Positions 15,890 through 60,017 of a stretch of 64,000 nucleotides of DNA are shown in pieces. Where the stretch lies: contig NW_008805094.1 in NCBI RefSeq assembly GCF_000004825.1, positions 62,001 through 126,000 on the forward strand, written 5' to 3'. The notes beneath the pieces were generated by a model. It did no database searches. It saw nothing but the letters and a program-made list of their open reading frames with translations, and had not been told where the DNA came from. The position numbers were made by a program, and so were the translations under genes. Position 1 is the stretch's first letter, and each line of letters begins with the position of its first letter. The DNA is from Heterostelium album PN500 (taxonomy: Eukaryota > Evosea > Eumycetozoa > Acytosteliales > Acytosteliaceae).

Positions 15890-16438
15890 TACAGAGATTT
15901 TTATCGAAGTATCTACCGCTCGAAAGAATCATTTTGCTCATGTTCGCTGATGACACTGGTGCTTTCACCCGGAACTTGGATGAACTGCAAAGAGTCATCC
16001 ATTGGTTTAACCTGTTCAAACTATCCACCACTGCGGACGTTAACTCTAGTAAATCGGTTATCATTCCGCTCGGTAACACTTCCACTGTTAACCTTCCGTT
16101 CCCTCTCTCCACCGTGCCTGAAAGATACTTAGGTGTCAACTTCAACCCGGATGGTCACTGCCCCAAACTGGCAAGTATAATCAATCTCATTAAAGCTAAC
16201 CTAGATCTGTATAAGAATAAAGTTTATACTCTTAGAGCGAAATCAACCATCATTAAATCTTATGTACTTCCCATGCTCTTCTATCACTTCAATCTTGAAT
16301 CACACACCTAATCAAATCAAGCTTGTCAACAGACTTATTGCTTGGTTCTTCACTAGTGCACCTGATGCCAAAGCAAAGTTCAAAGCGCTTTGTAGAAAAG
16401 TCATGGATATTTCAGTGAACACTCATAGACAATACTCC
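15890..16438 (+). mobile_element. LINE (non-LTR retrotransposon) reverse-transcriptase fragment
   Basis: An open frame at 15895-16311 contains the reverse-transcriptase catalytic box FADDTGAF and, about 65 residues on, ERYLGVNF, the YLG motif typical of non-LTR elements, followed by LRAKSTIIKSYVLPMLFYHF. The match continues just downstream in another frame as NRLIAWFFT, so the reading frame is shifted once near 16311. Base composition is visibly less AT-rich than the flanks. Endonuclease, 5' ORF and poly-A tail are absent, so this is a dead internal fragment, probably of a dictyostelid L1-like (TRE-type) element. It lies just downstream of the Utp13 gene; no tRNA gene, the usual TRE target, is visible nearby. 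Confidence 0.8.
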
Positions 16439-16702
16439 TAAATATGACAAATTCTCTCAAATATAAATAATAAATTTTAAAATATTTAATTTAAAAATAT
16501 TTAATATTTAATTAATATTTACAAACAAATATAATAAATAAAACATTTATCAAATAAATAATAAAGAAAATTCAATAATAAATAAAATGTTTAAACACAG
16601 TTATAAAGAATAATTGTTAAATAATCTAAATTTATTTATTTTAATGTTTATTTTCAGTGGCAGTGCATGCACATCTGTGGTGTTGTCAATATACTCAAAG
16701 GT

Positions 16703-17165
16703 TTATATTTGGGTATTGTTGGCAACATGCTAAATATGGAAAAAAGAAAAACAGAAAATAGATTCGAATTAGCTTAAATATTTATTAAAAAAAGAATTAA
16801 CATACCATTAATATGAGAGGTTGCACAATGTCCAACCTTTTTGTTTGATAATGAAATTGTGAAACATTCACATAAATTACATTCGAATCTGCTGGTGAGA
16901 CGCGAAAAAGTAAATATGTAATTAATGTTGAAAATTTATTTTTTTTATTTTCTAATATTTTGTTGAAAATATAATCTTCCAAATCAGTGATATAAATCAT
17001 AAGATTCCTCTTTAAATTAAGTTGGAATTGATTTATATGGATGATGTTGTTGTTTATGTTGTTGTTATTGCTGTTGTTATTGCTGTTGTTATTGATTTCA
17101 TATGTGAGATCAATGATTTCTTCTGTATACTTGTTTTCCTTTGTTAAATCAATTATAATCTTCAT
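16703..17165 (-). CDS. Small hypothetical protein with two SUMO-interaction-like motifs
   Basis: Tentative gene complement(join(16703..16729, 16806..17165)), 128 residues, using a GTATGT donor and a TTTAG acceptor. I recognise no family. The first 25 residues contain KIIIDLTKEN and EEIIDLTYE, both fitting the SUMO-interacting consensus of three or four hydrophobic residues next to acidic residues (compare VIDLT in known SIMs). An Asn-rich stretch follows, then an amphipathic region and a possible conserved patch around VSPADSNVIYVNV. The neighbours are mobile-element remnants, so it could be a gene fragment. Confidence that it is a real gene is low. Confidence 0.33.
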
Positions 17166-17690
17166 TCTTAATATAAATTGTTTTTTCTATACAAAAATGA
17201 AAATATGATTTGCTATTTATATTAAATTCTATACTATCAAAGTAATGAATGAGTTTACAGTAAAAAATAATATTTTACAATATTATATAAAAAGTTAAAA
17301 AAGTTAAAAAGATTACAAAATATATTATTCAAAAAATAAAGTTTTACAACAAAAGATAATTAAAATGATCAGAAAATAGTTATTTTTGAAAATTCTGTAA
17401 GTTAACATGAGATAGAGTTCTAAATAGTTTTGTAAACAAGTATATATCCACATTAAATTGTGAACAAATACTCAAGCAAATCATATAAAATAAACAAGAA
17501 GTGTGAGTAATGTTTATAAACACTGAGAAAAAAAAATTGAAAAGAAGAGAGAGAATATATATATATATATATGGTTGAAATAGGTGAGTAAATAAATTTA
17601 AATAAATCAATAATTCTCAATTTACAATTATATTTATGATAAAACAGAAAATAAATAAATACAGATACAACAGTGAATGATATTTTAAGT
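17166..17690. other. Intergenic, AT-rich
   Basis: Low-complexity AT-rich DNA between the small hypothetical gene and the left end of the hAT element. A 76-codon minus-strand frame at 17380-17610 is Leu/Phe/Tyr-rich and looks like a chance frame in AT-rich DNA. Confidence 0.55.
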
Positions 17691-17710
17691 GTTATATCAC
17701 AGTGCTGTGA
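17691..17710 (+). repeat. Left terminal inverted repeat of the hAT element
   Basis: GTTATATCACAGTGCTGTGA. It matches the reverse complement of the right end apart from one additional G, and it contains a CAGTG core of the kind common at hAT ends. Confidence 0.65.
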
Positions 17711-17783
17711 TTTGGATTATTCAACACTCCTCAGTACTATTAATAGATGAATATTATTAAATTTAATTGATTTATTTAATTGA

Positions 17784-20265
17784 TTATTTGATAAAATCTA
17801 ATTTAGAAATGCTGTTAGAACAGACTTGTGATTTGATAACTGTTTTCCCAAGAGACCACCTATTTTTAGTGAGCATGTCAGAGCTGTAACGGAATTCAAT
17901 CTCTGCAGGTGTAGATGTGCATTGAATGGCGAGATAGTCTCTAGCAATCCTAGATAGAACTGGGAACTCAATTTGATTCTCTTTCCAATACTGCAATGAG
18001 TCATTTGAGAATGTAGTTGGTAGATTTTTATATTTTGATAATTCATTCTCATTTTGTTCAACAATAATCTTGTTGAAATAAAAATAAAAATTAATAAATA
18101 TAATAAGAGTATTGATAGTGTAGATATAAAAATTAATTTAACTTACTATCTTTTGAGTGGATAAAATAAACTTCATTCTATCCATCTCTGGTTTGACTGA
18201 TTCTATACTGGTTTTATTTCCCTTAGTACCTCCATATTTAGTATAAATTGATTCAATTGAATTGTTTATGTTATTCCAATAATCTTTCCAAAATTCACTT
18301 TTAAATACCTCTAATTTGGTGAATGGTGCAAGAAAAGTTGAGATATAAAATGGTTCTATTCCATAATCAAGTGTTGTATAGTAACCCTAAAAAGTTTATG
18401 AATGTTTATATGATTAATAGTTTTCAAAAAAAAAAAGTTTTTTTAAAAAACCTTCAAATTTGAAAATGCAAATGTTAATAAAATATGATTACATACATCT
18501 ATTTCTTTCCAAAAGGCTTCAGCAGCAGTCTTGAGAATCTTATTGGTTTTCCATTCCTCTCCAATGTCCAAGAGCCGACCATACACAGGTAAACTGCAAG
18601 ACAGATTAACATCAGCTCCTTGTAATGCCAAAGTAATAAAATCCACACCATCCAAGAATTTATTGATTTGTTTGATGATATCCCATTCATCGGTAGTGAG
18701 ATGGATATCATGTTTCGTAATCTTATATTTAATGTCGTAATCAACTGCATCTTTGATCCTGATGAATCTACTAGTCATCTGAAAAGCAGATGACCAACGG
18801 ATTGGGTTCAATACTTTTGGCTTTAACCTGTCCTTCTTTTCAGTTTTTAGAATTTCAAAAATTCTAAAATTTTAAAATTTTTTATTAATTATGTAAAAAA
18901 AAAAATTATAATTGTGTTTCTTACCCAAAAAAAGCATCTGTTTGGTTACTGGAGTTTCTTAAATTTGAACCATAGGAGTGAATTTTATCGAAAAGATATT
19001 TCGTTGATTTATCTCCTATAAATGCTTTTATTGCTGAAAAAGAAGGGTTAATAAATTCAATGATGTATAGGAACAAATTGTTTGTTTAAAACAAAATATT
19101 AATATTTTAATATTTTTTTTATTTTTATACAACTTGAATAGCTAATGTATTATTTTTATTATATTCACTTACCTAAATTAATCACATGGTTTAAACATAA
19201 AATATGTCCACCCTGGAATCCTTTGTAATCATTGGAAGGATCTTGGTTTTTGACAATGTTCTCCACTGTAGTGTGGTTGTTCGAGCAGTTGTCAGAAGTG
19301 GTGCACATTATCTTTTTGGAGATATCAAACTTTTCTATAACATCAAAAAAAAGTTTTGATAGAGTTATACCTGAATCATGTTAATAAAATAATATTTGAT
19401 TGAATTAATAAATTGTAAATTAAAAATTCATTTTACAATACCTACCTGTTTTATCGCTTTTTAGGCTCTCCATTCCTAACAAACACTTTCTAGCTTTAAA
19501 TTGACTATCGATCCAATGACCAGTTACACCCAAAAAAGAGATATCCTTGACACTCCAGATATCGAAACAGAAACTGATTTTGGAATCCATAGTCTTGAAA
19601 TACTCTCTGAGTTGTACAACTTGATCATCATATCTTTTTATTATTCTATTTTTAATAGTATCTCCACCAACTAAATTGAACTCTGGTCTTAACGATGAAA
19701 TAAAATTTTTAAATCTCTCATCCTCTGTTAAGTTGAAGGGAAGATTTTTTTTGATTACTAAATCTATTAATAATTCCCTATTTTAATATAGTTAATAATT
19801 GAATATTCAATTTAAGATCATATATACATACTCTGATACACCTTGACTAAAAGGTTTTGATATAGCAAGTGCAAGTGTTTCTGCTTTTTTCCTTTTTTGT
19901 TCTGCGACATACGACCAATCTATTTCACTTTCTTTGTGGCAAGATAATCTCACATCTATAAAAAAATTAAAGAGAAAGAAATATAATAGGACAATCAGAT
20001 CACTTGAAATTGTTATTATTTTGTTAAATTTAAAAATCTTACTCTCAAGATGTGCCCATCCTAAACCACTAGACACTGATTTTTTGTCTACCTTATCGTA
20101 TTTAAAAGAAAATACTTGACAGTATTTACACTTCATTTTAATTAAATTCTTATCATTCGAATCTATAAATTTAAAAAAGTGTTCATAAATAGAACTATTA
20201 TATTTATTGGATCTTTTTTTTATTTCTTTATCAGATGAACTATAAGGGTGATATTTTTCACTCAT
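17784..20265 (-). CDS. hAT transposase, intact, eight exons
   Basis: Exons complement(join(17784..18068, 18147..18386, 18497..18863, 18925..19033, 19173..19370, 19446..19777, 19832..19955, 20043..20265)) keep phase at every GT-AG join and give 625 residues. The order is: a BED-like zinc finger (KCKYC then WAHLE...SCH); the RNase H-fold core with SFCFDIWSVKDISFLGVTGHWI (first catalytic Asp), CTTSDNCSNNH (second Asp) and CLNHVINL (the hAT C-x2-H); RWSSAFQM and the insertion-domain helices around LTTDEWDIIKQ; then the C-terminal hAT dimerisation domain (FPVLSRIARDYLAIQCTSTPAEIEF ... LTKNRWSL, residues quoted in parts). It should cut and paste its element. Seven introns are unusual for a transposase, so a domesticated host gene is an alternative, though terminal repeats are still present. 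Confidence 0.85.
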
Positions 20266-20698
20266 TTTATAACTATTATAAAATTAATTATTATTAATAA
20301 ATTCTAAAACTCTAACACTGAATCAATCAAAAATTTATAATTGTAATAAATGTGAAATCAAAAAATAAATTTAAAAAAAATTCATAAATATTGTTAAATA
20401 TTTGATAAATATTTTTCAAAATCTTGAATTTACCTCCCCATCGCACATATACCAAATTTATGATCAAAGTTAGTGTTTGAAAACATATTATTCAAATAGT
20501 TACAAGAGTTAAATAATAAATCAAATAATATCAGTAATACTATTGAAATTAAAAAATTTATACTACATTTCACATGTGAATATGTATGTCATATATCATA
20601 TATAGTTTATAAAACGTTTTTTGATTTTAATCACTTGACTTTATGTATTTTTTGGTGTATTAGCAATTTAAATACTATACACCGACTACTATATAGTC

Positions 20699-20717
20699 TC
20701 ACAGACTGTGATATAAC
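20699..20717 (-). repeat. Right terminal inverted repeat of the hAT element
   Basis: The plus strand reads TCACAGACTGTGATATAAC, the reverse complement of GTTATATCACAGTCTGTGA. The pairing with the left end covers 19 of 20 positions with one single-base gap. Confidence 0.65.
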
Positions 20718-21302
20718 TATTTTATTATATATGTAATTAGTCAATGACTGTATGACATATAGTATGACATATGTAGTTTGAAATTTCTACACACTGGTAT
20801 GTTTTTCAAATAGATTAAGTTAACCAATTAAATTCCGTACAAGTACAACGCACCACGAATCAATTCAACTCCTAAACATTCATTTAATATCTTGATCCTT
20901 TTATAATGGTATAAACAGTCAATGAACTATATATATATGAAAAAAAAATAATTTGTTTTATTTGTATTTTTCAAAAAAATCATACAAATATGAATATATA
21001 CATATGTATTTTTGTATGTCAAAGTGAAAAATGTGTTAATTAGTGTTATTATAAAATTAAATAATTCAATTCAATTATATCGTACTTCAATTCATTCACA
21101 TAGTGTTGTTATATTAACATTTAATAATAATTTTATTGATATAACCGATCGAGGTTTAGAAAATTATTTAATTTATAGATCTATAAATTTAATAAAGTTT
21201 ATATTTATTTAATATTTATATTAAAATATATTTGATATATATTTATAATAAATATTAAATATTCAAATTTAATATTTGAGTTGAGTATTTATTTATTATA
21301 TT
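20718..21302. other. Intergenic, AT-rich
   Basis: AT-rich spacer between the hAT element and the chromodomain fossil. A 66-codon plus-strand frame at 21012-21212 has only AT-driven composition; no feature is supported. Confidence 0.55.
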
Positions 21303-21606
21303 TAGGAGTATTGATGTTCACGATCTAGTGCCATACACTCCAAATGACGACACACTATTCGACCCAGCCATCCGCGATTTCCAAGAACCAGAACCAGAAG
21401 AAATCGACAACGAACTGGAATATGAAGTAGAAGCTATACTTAATCACCGCAAGTTCGGAAGAAGCAAGAATTACAAGTATCTAATACGATGGCTTGGATA
21501 TGGAGAAGACAAGAGCACTTGGGAATACGAGGAGAACCTAACCAACTGTAAACTAATTCTAGATAACTATAAACAAAAACATAATATAGAATTAAATCAA
21601 AATTAA
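21303..21606 (+). mobile_element. Fossil fragment of a chromodomain LTR retrotransposon (chromovirus)
   Basis: An isolated stretch of about 90-100 codons encodes a linker and a chromodomain (YEVEAILNHRKFG ... YLIRWLGYGEDKSTWEYEENL). This is the form found at the integrase C-terminus of Ty3/Gypsy chromoviruses, a class that includes dictyostelid Skipper-type elements. The base composition is clearly less AT-rich than the flanks. No gag, protease, reverse transcriptase, integrase core or LTR is visible around it, so only the terminal part of the element remains. A solo host chromodomain gene is a less likely alternative because no start region is present. Confidence 0.7.
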
Positions 21607-56749: not shown

Positions 56750-59700
56750 ATGTCTCAATATCTAGTTGTCAATGAACAATGTTTGACAAAGGCAAATGGT
56801 AAGTTAATATTAACTTATTAGATTCAATATCTATTTTAAAAATATTATAGATGATCATATATATATATATTAATATAAATTTATTATTATTATTATTATT
56901 ATTATTATAGAATTTGTTCAAATGGGACAACCAATTGCAGCTTTGGACACAATGAGAGAGTTATTGTTGTTCAGAAACATTTGGCATCCATCGTTGGAAC
57001 ATGTCATGTCGTTGTATATCAGATTGTGTGTTGATATTCAACCAGGTACACCAGCAGCAAGAGATCAAGTGTTATACATTAAGGATGGTCTTCATCAATA
57101 TCGTGGATCACTCACCAATCAAAAGGAGTTCAACGTTGTTCCATTGGACAATATCTTGAGAGATTTGTTGACTCGTTTGGATGCCAAGCTCGAGGAAGCC
57201 AAGAGTGCTGCCGCCGCAGCTTCCGAAGGTCTCGAAGCCGAGGCTGCCGCTGCCATCACCGAAGAGAAATTGAACCCACAATTGAAATTGATGTCGGAAG
57301 TCTACCAAATCCTCTTGGATATCCTCAAGCACAACAAGCTCGAAGCTATCTACCAGAAGATCTCTGCACAAGCCATCAACTTTTGTCAAGTCTATGACCG
57401 TAAAAAGGATTTCTACAGAATCGGTGAAATCTTCCGTAACCACGTAGAGAACCTCATCAAATCCGCCAATCAATACACCACACCAGACACCATCTACACT
57501 CACATCGATGTTCGTTTCTCACAGTTGAACGCTGCCATCGCCATGGGAATCTGGCAAGAGGCATTCCGTTCCATCGAGGACATCAACAGCTTGTTTGGTT
57601 TGCTCGCCAAGCCAAAGCCAAACGTGTTGGCCGCCTACTTCCAAAAGTTGGCACAAATCTACTGGGTTGCCGGTTCACACCTCCTCCATGCCTACGCTCT
57701 CTACAAGCATCTCTACTACAATAAGACCTACAACACCAACTTCTCCAACGAAGATTCAATGTTGTTCTCCTCGGTCTTGTTGGTTGCCGCCATCTCCTCG
57801 CCAGTCCAAGAGTCATCGCAATCCTCTTTGTTGCAATTCGACGCACAATCACAGAGAAACACATCGTTGGCTTCATTGCTCGGTCTCTCTGCCTATCCAA
57901 AGAGAGAGACTTTCATCGCTGAAGTTCGTCGTATCGCCACCAACGTCTACCCAGAGTTAGCCGATCTCATGAACACCTTTGATCGTCGTAGCTCACCACT
58001 CAACTTGGCCACTCAATTGGCACCAAAGATTGAGTTTATCAAGCAACACCCACAATTGGCCCAATACAACAAGTCATTCCTCAAGACCATCTTCACCAAG
58101 ATCGCTCTCCAAGTCAGTCAAGTCTTTGAGGTCATCAAGATCAGCGAGTTTGTCAAGTTGATCCCATTCTTTGACCGTAATGAAATCGAATTGTTGTTGC
58201 TCGACTCGATCAAGCGTAAATTGATCGGTGCTCGTATCGACCACCGTAATGGTGTTGTCCGTTTCGGTCACTACGACTTTGATTCCGCCAACATCGGTGA
58301 CCAATTGTCCAACTTGGCTCAAGGTGTCCGTAAGGCTCTCAAGATGATCGAGTCCGAGCGTAAGGACGACTCTGCTGCCAAAGTCAAGCGTGAAGTCTAC
58401 GTCAAGATTATCAACAGTTTGGGTGACGAACACCGTCGTATCTTGGCTCGTAAGGAGATCATCGAGAAGAAGAAGATCTACGTCGAGCAACAAGAGCGTC
58501 TCCGTCGTCAACGTGAAGAGGAACAATTGGCTGCCGCCGCTGCCCAAAAGGCAGAGAAGGATCAAGCCATGGTCAAGGAGAACTTGGAGAGACGTGAGAA
58601 TGAGAACAAGGAACCAACTCGTTCTCAAATGATCAATCAAACCATCAACGCCATGGACAAGGCCAAGGTCGAGATGGCCACCAAGGTTGCCAAGCTCTCA
58701 AAGCAAATCTACTATTTGGAGCGTGCCTTCAGACATGAGGAAGTCCCAGTCATCAAGTCTCAACTCGAAGCCAAGCAATCCGAGGACAGAGAATACTTTG
58801 CCGCTCAACAAGCTGAACACCTCGCCAAGCACAAAGAGAGATTCGAATTGGACGTCAAAGAGAAGCACAGACTCGCCAGAATGTTCGACGACATCCAAGC
58901 TCACACCAACAAGGTACTCGACCAAAGAAGACAACACCTCCCAGCATTGCAAAAACAACAACAAGCCAGATTCGAGAAGTTCATGGAGCAACAGGCTGCC
59001 GAACAAGCTGCCAAGAAGGCCAAGAAAGAAGAAGAGAAACGTATTGCCGAAGAGAAGCGTATTCGTGAAGCTGAGGAAGCTGCCCGTCTTGAAAAGGAAA
59101 GACAAGAAGCTTTGGCCAACGAAACTTACTCACAAAGAAAGGAAAGAGAGAGACGTGAAAAGGCTGCCGCCGATGCTGCCGCCGGTGTCTCTCCCAAGGA
59201 AGAAAACTGGAGAGGACGTGATGAGCCAAGACGTGATGAGAGTTGGGGAAGAGAGCCAAGACGTGATGAACCAAGAGAAGGTGGTTGGGGAAGAGAACCA
59301 AGACGTGATGAACCAAGAGAAGGTGGTTGGGGAAGACGTGATGAACCAAGACGTGACGATGGTCCATGGGGAAGACGTGAAGAGCCAAGACGTGACGAAC
59401 CAAGAGAAGGTGGTTGGAGAGATGCTCCAAGAGATGCTCCAAGAGATGCTCCAAGAGATGCTCCAAGAGATGCTCCAAGAGATGCTCCAAGAGATGCTCC
59501 AAGAGATGCTCCAAGAGACGCACCAAGACGTGACGATGGTCCATGGGGAAGAGAACCAAGACGTGATGAACCAAGAGAAGGTGGATGGAGAGATGCTCCA
59601 AGAGATGCTCCAAGAGACGTACCAAGACGTGACGAACCAAGAAGAGAAGAGGGTGGATGGAGAGATGGTCCAAGACGTGATGAGCCAAGAAGAGAAGAAG

Positions 59701-60017
59701 GTGGATGGAGAGAAGGTCCAAGAGACGGACCAAGAGATGGTCCAAGACGTGATGAGCCAAGAAGAGAAGAAGGTGGTTGGAGAGATGGTCCAAGACGTGA
59801 TGAACCAAAACGTGAAGAAGGTGGATGGAGAGATGGTCCAAGAGACGGACCAAGAGATGGTCCAAGAGATGGACAAAGAGGTGGATTCGGTCCAAAGCGT
59901 GACGAACCAAGAGACGGACAAAGAGGTGGATTCGGTCCAAAGCGTGACGAACCAAAGGACAACAAGAACAAGGTTGATGCTGATGGTTGGACCACTGTCG
60001 GAGGAAAGAAGAAATAA
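56750..60017 (+). CDS. eif3a: Translation initiation factor eIF3 subunit a
   Basis: Two exons, join(56750..56798, 56911..60017), give 1051 residues. The 16-codon first exon carries the true start (MSQYLVVNEQCLTKAN). Then: an N-terminal helical region (PIAALDTMRELLLFRNIWHP), a PCI domain around residues 330-500 (KLIPFFDRNEIELLLLDSIK), a long charged coiled coil from about 550 to 830 (EKKKIYVEQQERLRRQREEE), and a C-terminal tail of Arg/Asp/Pro/Gly repeats (DEPRREEGGW and RDAP units), ending DGWTTVGGKK. Human eIF3a also ends in Asp/Arg-rich decapeptide repeats. eIF3a is the core scaffold of eIF3. Codon use is strongly C-ending, as in highly expressed genes. Confidence 0.95.
59218..59960 (+). repeat. 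Nested tandem repeats in the eIF3a C-terminus
   Basis: Degenerate 12- to 36-bp units encode DEPR, EGGW and RDGP motifs. Within them, 59419-59514 holds eight perfect copies of the 12-mer GAGATGCTCCAA (RDAP). Perfect copies mean recent expansion by slippage or unequal exchange. The repeats also create long open shadow frames on both strands. Confidence 0.9.

Follow-up and report, generated by a model that had tools for sequence, protein, structure and literature searches.

A very young, probably autonomous hAT transposon family with a putative accessory gene in Heterostelium album PN500

Within the window, the whole stretch of 64,000 nucleotides analysed here (C32:62001-126000), we identified a DNA transposon that quite probably represents a very young hAT family with an accessory gene in Heterostelium album PN500, one that is probably autonomous. 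The genome searched for relatives was that of the same strain (32.9 Mb, 39 contigs). An earlier note on this DNA had described an apparently complete hAT transposon in a dictyostelid, and our analysis supports this, though at corrected ends. The inverted repeats of 19-20 bp at 17691/20717 that had been taken as its bounds proved to be the wrong ones: copies of the element extend to 16430 and 21313. The element and its immediate surroundings are as follows.

16430..21313, minus strand: whole hAT element, 4,884 bp, with both genes on the minus strand; ends from alignment of the C25, C14 and C12 copies
16430..16445, plus strand: left terminal inverted repeat CAATACTCCTAAATAT, 16 bp, perfect
21298..21313, minus strand: right terminal inverted repeat, inverted CAATACTCCTAAATAT, 16 bp
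16389..16429, plus strand: left flank, 41 bp of a repeat that recurs in the genome, giving a paralogous empty site
21314..21600, plus strand: right flank, which reads as a chromodomain (named by eye)

Short terminal inverted repeats (TIRs) bound the copies, as in other hATs. The pattern CAATACTCCYWAATAT is matched 20 times genome-wide, at ten left and ten right ends (three of the latter being short fragments), and its reversed control finds no match in the same genome. Beyond the 16 bp, a weaker similarity between the two ends runs for ~150 bp at 72%. The TIR starts with CAATA, which satisfies positions 1-4 of the 5'-YARNG start of hAT TIRs and violates the fifth base; that start is a tendency rather than a definition. 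Empty-site comparisons, on which the earlier note had let its boundaries stand or fall, also gave borders that differ from 17691/20717. The last 19 bases of the left-flank repeat occur at nine other places, and at the three inspected (on C4, C30 and C28) the repeat continues past CTCATAGA with no element there, which identifies 16430 as the true left border. The first 317 bases of the right flank have no second match in the genome. As termini, 17691/20717 were rejected, being internal wherever a copy covers them, with the 8-bp duplications lying at 16430/21313 instead; as the ends of an older nested element they are unsupported, since by eye no 8-bp duplication stands beside them. Next to the element, at 15890-16390 of the window, we noted by eye a reverse-transcriptase-like stretch of a non-LTR element, which eight further places match over 344-363 bases at 91-94%. 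Elsewhere in the window, 56874-60017 holds a GC-rich frame of 1047 amino acids, skewed in composition and including a long repeat of the RDEPR type.

The search for further copies that had been proposed revealed about ten, nearly identical to one another: ten left ends with ten different flanks, and seven long right ends (matches to the whole 714-base query). Over 16430-21313 the complete copies on C25, C14 and C12 are 99.9, 99.2 and 99.7% identical to the window's copy, and three of these four complete copies differ among themselves by 2-3 substitutions. The transposase frame is intact in all four; compared with the window's copy its product is unchanged in C25 and C12 and carries four amino acid changes in C14, where four of six exon differences are replacements. 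A dN/dS comparison between transposase copies, also proposed earlier, was run and proved uninformative. The presence of about ten nearly identical copies indicates that the family has been mobile very recently. The element may be mobile today, and because three of the four complete copies differ by only 2-3 substitutions we predict that present activity is likely. The suggestion of a recent, perhaps active hAT was thus borne out by the near-identical copies, the 8-bp duplications and the frame intact in every complete copy. No miniature derivatives appeared among the 20 end matches, the sole short pieces there being fragments of the right end, on C27, C9 and C28. At C28:835043-836226 (L048) 39 bp from the right end of another copy run straight into a left end, in what looks like a nested insertion; this site lies 115 bp past the repeat that also flanks the window's copy.

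Comparison of ten left with nine right flanks (90 pairs) showed that five pairs share a perfect 8-bp word, where about 0.003 would be expected by chance (our own arithmetic), and no pair among the 90 gave a near-miss of seven in eight. The shared words are listed below.

ATTACAGC: on both sides of one copy, on C25
CTTCGTAC: C12/C39
ATAGATAT: C18/C10
TTAGAGGG: C22/C12
CTCCTTGA: C25 start/C11

The copies are therefore accompanied by the 8-bp target site duplication of hAT elements. When the C12 and C39 flanks were joined and one 8-bp word removed, they formed an unbroken frame of 299 codons with a single AA_permease_2 match spanning the join (E=7.9e-24), which is best read as a reconstructed empty site in an amino-acid permease frame. 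The three other joined pairs (four of the five were joined) gave no frame of more than 90 codons. Among 14 target octamers, 12 have T at position 2 and nine have A at position 7, with both present in seven; in the five proven duplications the respective counts are five and two. On these figures the targets would fit the Hermes pattern nTnnnnAn in part.

These duplications also bear on whether the transposase is under early domestication, kept as a host gene, as the earlier note had considered. Its intact frame would suit such a role; against this stand at least ten near-identical insertions distinguished by their left flanks, which show matching ends and duplicated targets and one of which lies inside the permease frame. 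For a multicopy element with ends intact and duplications present domestication is unsupported, and we consider it highly improbable.

Of the four assembled complete copies only one is bracketed by a matching duplication; in the window's, C12 and C14 copies the two flanks share no 8-bp word. In the C14 copy we saw just an off-set TTTATT, which was left out of the count. Both flanks of the C12 copy find perfect partners on other contigs, namely at the starts of C39 and C22, and for this reason mis-joining of identical copies in the assembly is the simplest cause of the missing duplications. The window's copy might instead be one faithful insertion that has since lost its duplication, through deletion or through recombination between copies, with no assembly join involved. 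Recombination between identical copies would exchange flanks just as observed, and we give this reading some weight while holding it to be the less probable. It sits poorly with the C12 copy, which joins two flanks having partners at two contig starts, and with the number of ends at contig edges or gaps, the usual mark of collapsed repeats: five of ten left ends run off a contig end and one into a gap, and three of the seven long right ends run off a contig end. Besides the mis-joining that we favour for the window's copy, the shared words would place C12 (>396847) beside the start of C39, C12 (<391976) beside the start of C22, the start of C18 beside that of C10, and the start of C25 beside the end of C11. 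These matches suggest contig adjacencies, along with a mis-join or rearrangement of C12 at the element. Copies are where the assembly breaks, and the target duplications point to possible wrong joins in the public version.

The larger of the two genes encodes the transposase, for which eight minus-strand exons between 20265 and 17784 were predicted.

20043..20265, minus strand: exon 1, ATG at 20265
19832..19955, minus strand: exon 2
19446..19777, minus strand: exon 3, with D188
19173..19370, minus strand: exon 4, with D253 and C285-x2-H288
18925..19033, minus strand: exon 5
18497..18863, minus strand: exon 6
18147..18386, minus strand: exon 7
17784..18068, minus strand: exon 8, with E587, Dimer_Tnp_hAT at 541-617 and the stop

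As the earlier note had it, the exons join in phase to exactly 625 residues, and all seven predicted introns are GT-AG. The introns measure 54-139 bp, with a GC content of 15.7% vs 31.7% in the exons. If retained, six of the seven would introduce in-frame stops. The exception is intron 1 (87 bp), and its removal is accordingly deduced from base composition, from the H72-x7-C80 finger spacing that it creates, and from the junction, which the deposited gene model P0002 shares.

The protein reads plainly as a hAT transposase. In Pfam the dimerisation domain, which had been named from the letters, was recovered at residues 541-617 (Dimer_Tnp_hAT, PF05699; E=1.8e-12, 47.3 bits vs a cut-off of 21.4). 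Among solved structures the sequence alone finds Hermes through its C-terminal region (E=2.8e-4), and Hermes entries are the only matches with E<0.001, others being at E=0.17 or worse. A profile of the transposase and three relatives extends this match to E=3.1e-27 over profile positions 81-599 of 607. The RNase H aspartates D188 and D253 and the C-x2-H motif (C285-x2-H288) reported earlier are indeed found, aligned to Hermes via this profile. E587 is present as well, and it aligns with the Glu of Hermes in the single-sequence search of solved structures. The BED finger that had been claimed survives as a motif, in the spacing C46-x2-C49...H72-x7-C80, of which H-x7-C is the same as in the zf-BED of P0003, a RICESLEEPER-like plant hAT; Pfam zf-BED was reached neither by the whole transposase (to E=1) nor by its N-terminal piece (to E=10), for which the only Pfam match was PyrI_C (E=0.018).

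Two deposited models, P0001 and P0002, omit residues 227-238 and 293-298, and P0001 omits the transposase finger too. Because the skipped residues align with relatives, both models are probably mis-spliced. In P0002 (PPL_12646; L017, C11:1636759-1640472) the transposase is also run together with an ATPase-like stretch that lies upstream of it. Pfam ATPase matches to this stretch fall below the cut-off, and we presume it to be like a Polinton-like packaging ATPase.

The 1.25 kb between the transposase and the left end hold a second frame, ORF2, of 126-130 codons from 17165. Its splice and coordinates were read by eye.

16695..17165, minus strand: predicted accessory gene ORF2, ATG at 17165, intron 16805-16730, stop at 16695

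The predicted product of about 130 amino acids opens with MKIIIDLTKENKYTEEIIDLT, contains CNLCECFTISLSNKKVGHCATSH, and has a Cys/His finger (C-x2-C-x13-H-x4-H, a spacing seen by eye only) and two I-I-D-L-T stretches. In 2000 shuffles no frame as long as its 130 amino acids arose, the longest reaching 120. ORF2 is open throughout in eight of the nine copies that cover it, with an Asn/Ser repeat that is 12 bp shorter, in frame, in six of the nine. The exception is the window's own copy, which is frameshifted by one base fewer at about 16911. The tenth left end, at the start of C25, spans residues 96-120 only.

A diverged fragment on C4 offered a longer view of this frame.

C4:2069130-2069360: ORF2 relic (L049), old and diverged, with stops

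Its longer protein match holds three stops, which mark the fragment as a relic, and the protein search of the genome listed no transposase beside it. Over the 43 codons found by DNA alignment (the next codon, a replacement, being left out), ORF2 and the fragment differ at 11 bases, eight silent and three replacement (P 2e-4 to 7e-4; dN/dS about 0.07). The silent excess is confined to the ORF2 frame, the ratios elsewhere being 2:9 and 0:11 for the two remaining forward frames and 2:9, 5:6 and 0:11 for the three reverse ones. From this excess we take it that selection maintained the ORF2 frame in one lineage or more.

Searches of Pfam and PDB up to E=10 gave no match to ORF2. One protein search found no relative outside the H. 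album PN500 genome, the sole relative being PPL_03639, a deposited model of that same genome. Lacking homologue and domain match, with a frameshift in the window's copy and stops in the C4 relic, it might be a captured or non-functional passenger in an ordinary one-gene hAT. We regard this as unlikely in view of the frame open in eight of nine copies and the 8:3 silent excess seen against the C4 fragment in that frame only. ORF2 could also belong to the transposase transcript as an alternative 3' end, in which case a single gene would yield a longer transposase with a second C-terminal finger. P0001 does join the transposase (to ..KSQ) in frame to KKQFILR-ORF2, and P0007 begins at the same KKQFILR. 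ORF2, however, has an ATG of its own, about 620 bp beyond the stop of the transposase; the donor that P0001 would require begins GTCTGT, in contrast to GTAAG, GTATG or GTAGG in the seven predicted introns; and that model loses residues that align with relatives. We therefore find this reading a shade more doubtful still. Our preferred interpretation is that ORF2 is a gene of its own, whose product we predict to be a DNA-binding helper or regulator, perhaps acting through a pair of palindromes inside the element.

These palindromes lie within the earlier terminal repeat. The inverted repeat at 17691/20717 is real, with 13+6 matched bases, a total of 19 that only three of 200 shuffles of the element reach. 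Its core is the palindrome TCACAGN1-2CTGTGA, which occurs twice in the window, both times inside the element.

17697..17710, no strand: internal palindrome TCACAGTGCTGTGA, centre 538 bp upstream of the ORF2 ATG
20699..20711, no strand: internal palindrome TCACAGACTGTGA, centre 440 bp upstream of the transposase ATG

Both are kept in every copy that covers them (six of six on the left, seven of seven on the right). We rejected the palindrome as a host motif: it has 17 places in the genome, 13 of them in element copies and four elsewhere, vs five for the reversed control. The best match shared by the upstream regions of the two genes is 29 bp at 83% (E=2.4e-4, with no low-complexity filter). The BED fingers of Hermes are reported to bind a quasi-palindrome (PMC10368747), and on that precedent a binding site is a reasonable guess for the paired palindromes.

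These data allow us to propose a mechanism for the element. The eight-exon, 625-residue transposase would bind the 16-bp ends, recognising them through the terminal repeats and its N-terminal finger, and would excise the element by hAT-type D-D-E chemistry. The element would then insert at 8-bp targets, which become duplicated. The second, small gene, read in the same direction, would give a helper or regulator acting perhaps at the palindromes about 0.45-0.55 kb upstream of either gene. In a bolder version of this two-gene model the ORF2 protein, with its finger and tandem I-I-D-L-T stretches, which we take to resemble SUMO-interaction motifs, would bind the palindromes to control both genes or would couple transposition to the host SUMO system; this we put forward as speculation, and as improbable. 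Splicing, binding and regulation are throughout predictions from the DNA.

Among characterised elements, Hermes of the house fly resembles this one in the D-D-E acids, the C-x2-H motif, the hAT dimerisation region, the 8-bp target duplications and T at the second target position. It differs in that identity is low, the H. album element has seven predicted introns, another TIR and a second gene, its finger goes unrecognised by Pfam zf-BED, and A stands at target position 7 in only two of the five proven cases. The best relative outside the genome by E-value, among 7,996 candidates scored, is P0003 (21% identity over 96% of the query, E=3.6e-15). It has the same Cys-x2-Cys...His-x7-Cys spacing, whereas it passes the Pfam cut-offs for zf-BED and the hAT-like RNase H, both of which the H. 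album transposase fails. We know of no accessory gene in RICESLEEPER-like plant hATs. The 7,996 candidates scored were those sharing most words, so missing relatives in other dictyostelids are no proof of absence.

The Tdd, DDT and Thug elements of Dictyostelium discoideum are likewise class II elements in a dictyostelid; their transposases are reported to have no significant similarity to known transposases (PMC5633606), whereas the H. album element is plainly a hAT. Sola2-Fanzor elements are reported from the same strain (as P. pallidum) as DNA transposons that also carry an extra gene (PMC3627910); these belong to another superfamily, with 4-bp duplications, 21-bp TIRs and a different extra gene. 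A P-element-like transposase is mentioned in P. pallidum (PMC3985635). The titles, abstract openings and paper passages searched contained no account of the element described here.

Our search of the genome placed the hAT dimerisation domain at 12 sites, four of them in the element family and eight outside it.

C2:1607627, C12:1432849, C15:603710, C31:192140 and C35:216447: other hAT dimerisation domains, of near-equal score
C5:226763, C15:564435 and C4:63216: other hAT dimerisation domains, one each

The five of near-equal score probably reflect at least one more multicopy hAT family. With eight further domains, hATs are not rare in H. album PN500, which weakens the earlier view that an intact, intron-rich hAT would be unusual in a dictyostelid; what is new here is the youth of the family, its second gene and the corrected anatomy, and not the presence of a hAT as such.

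To our knowledge hATs follow a one-gene plan, and none has a dedicated accessory gene. ORF2, if it works for the element, would break that plan. Should the element be active, it would provide a natural insertional mutagen for social amoebae of its group.
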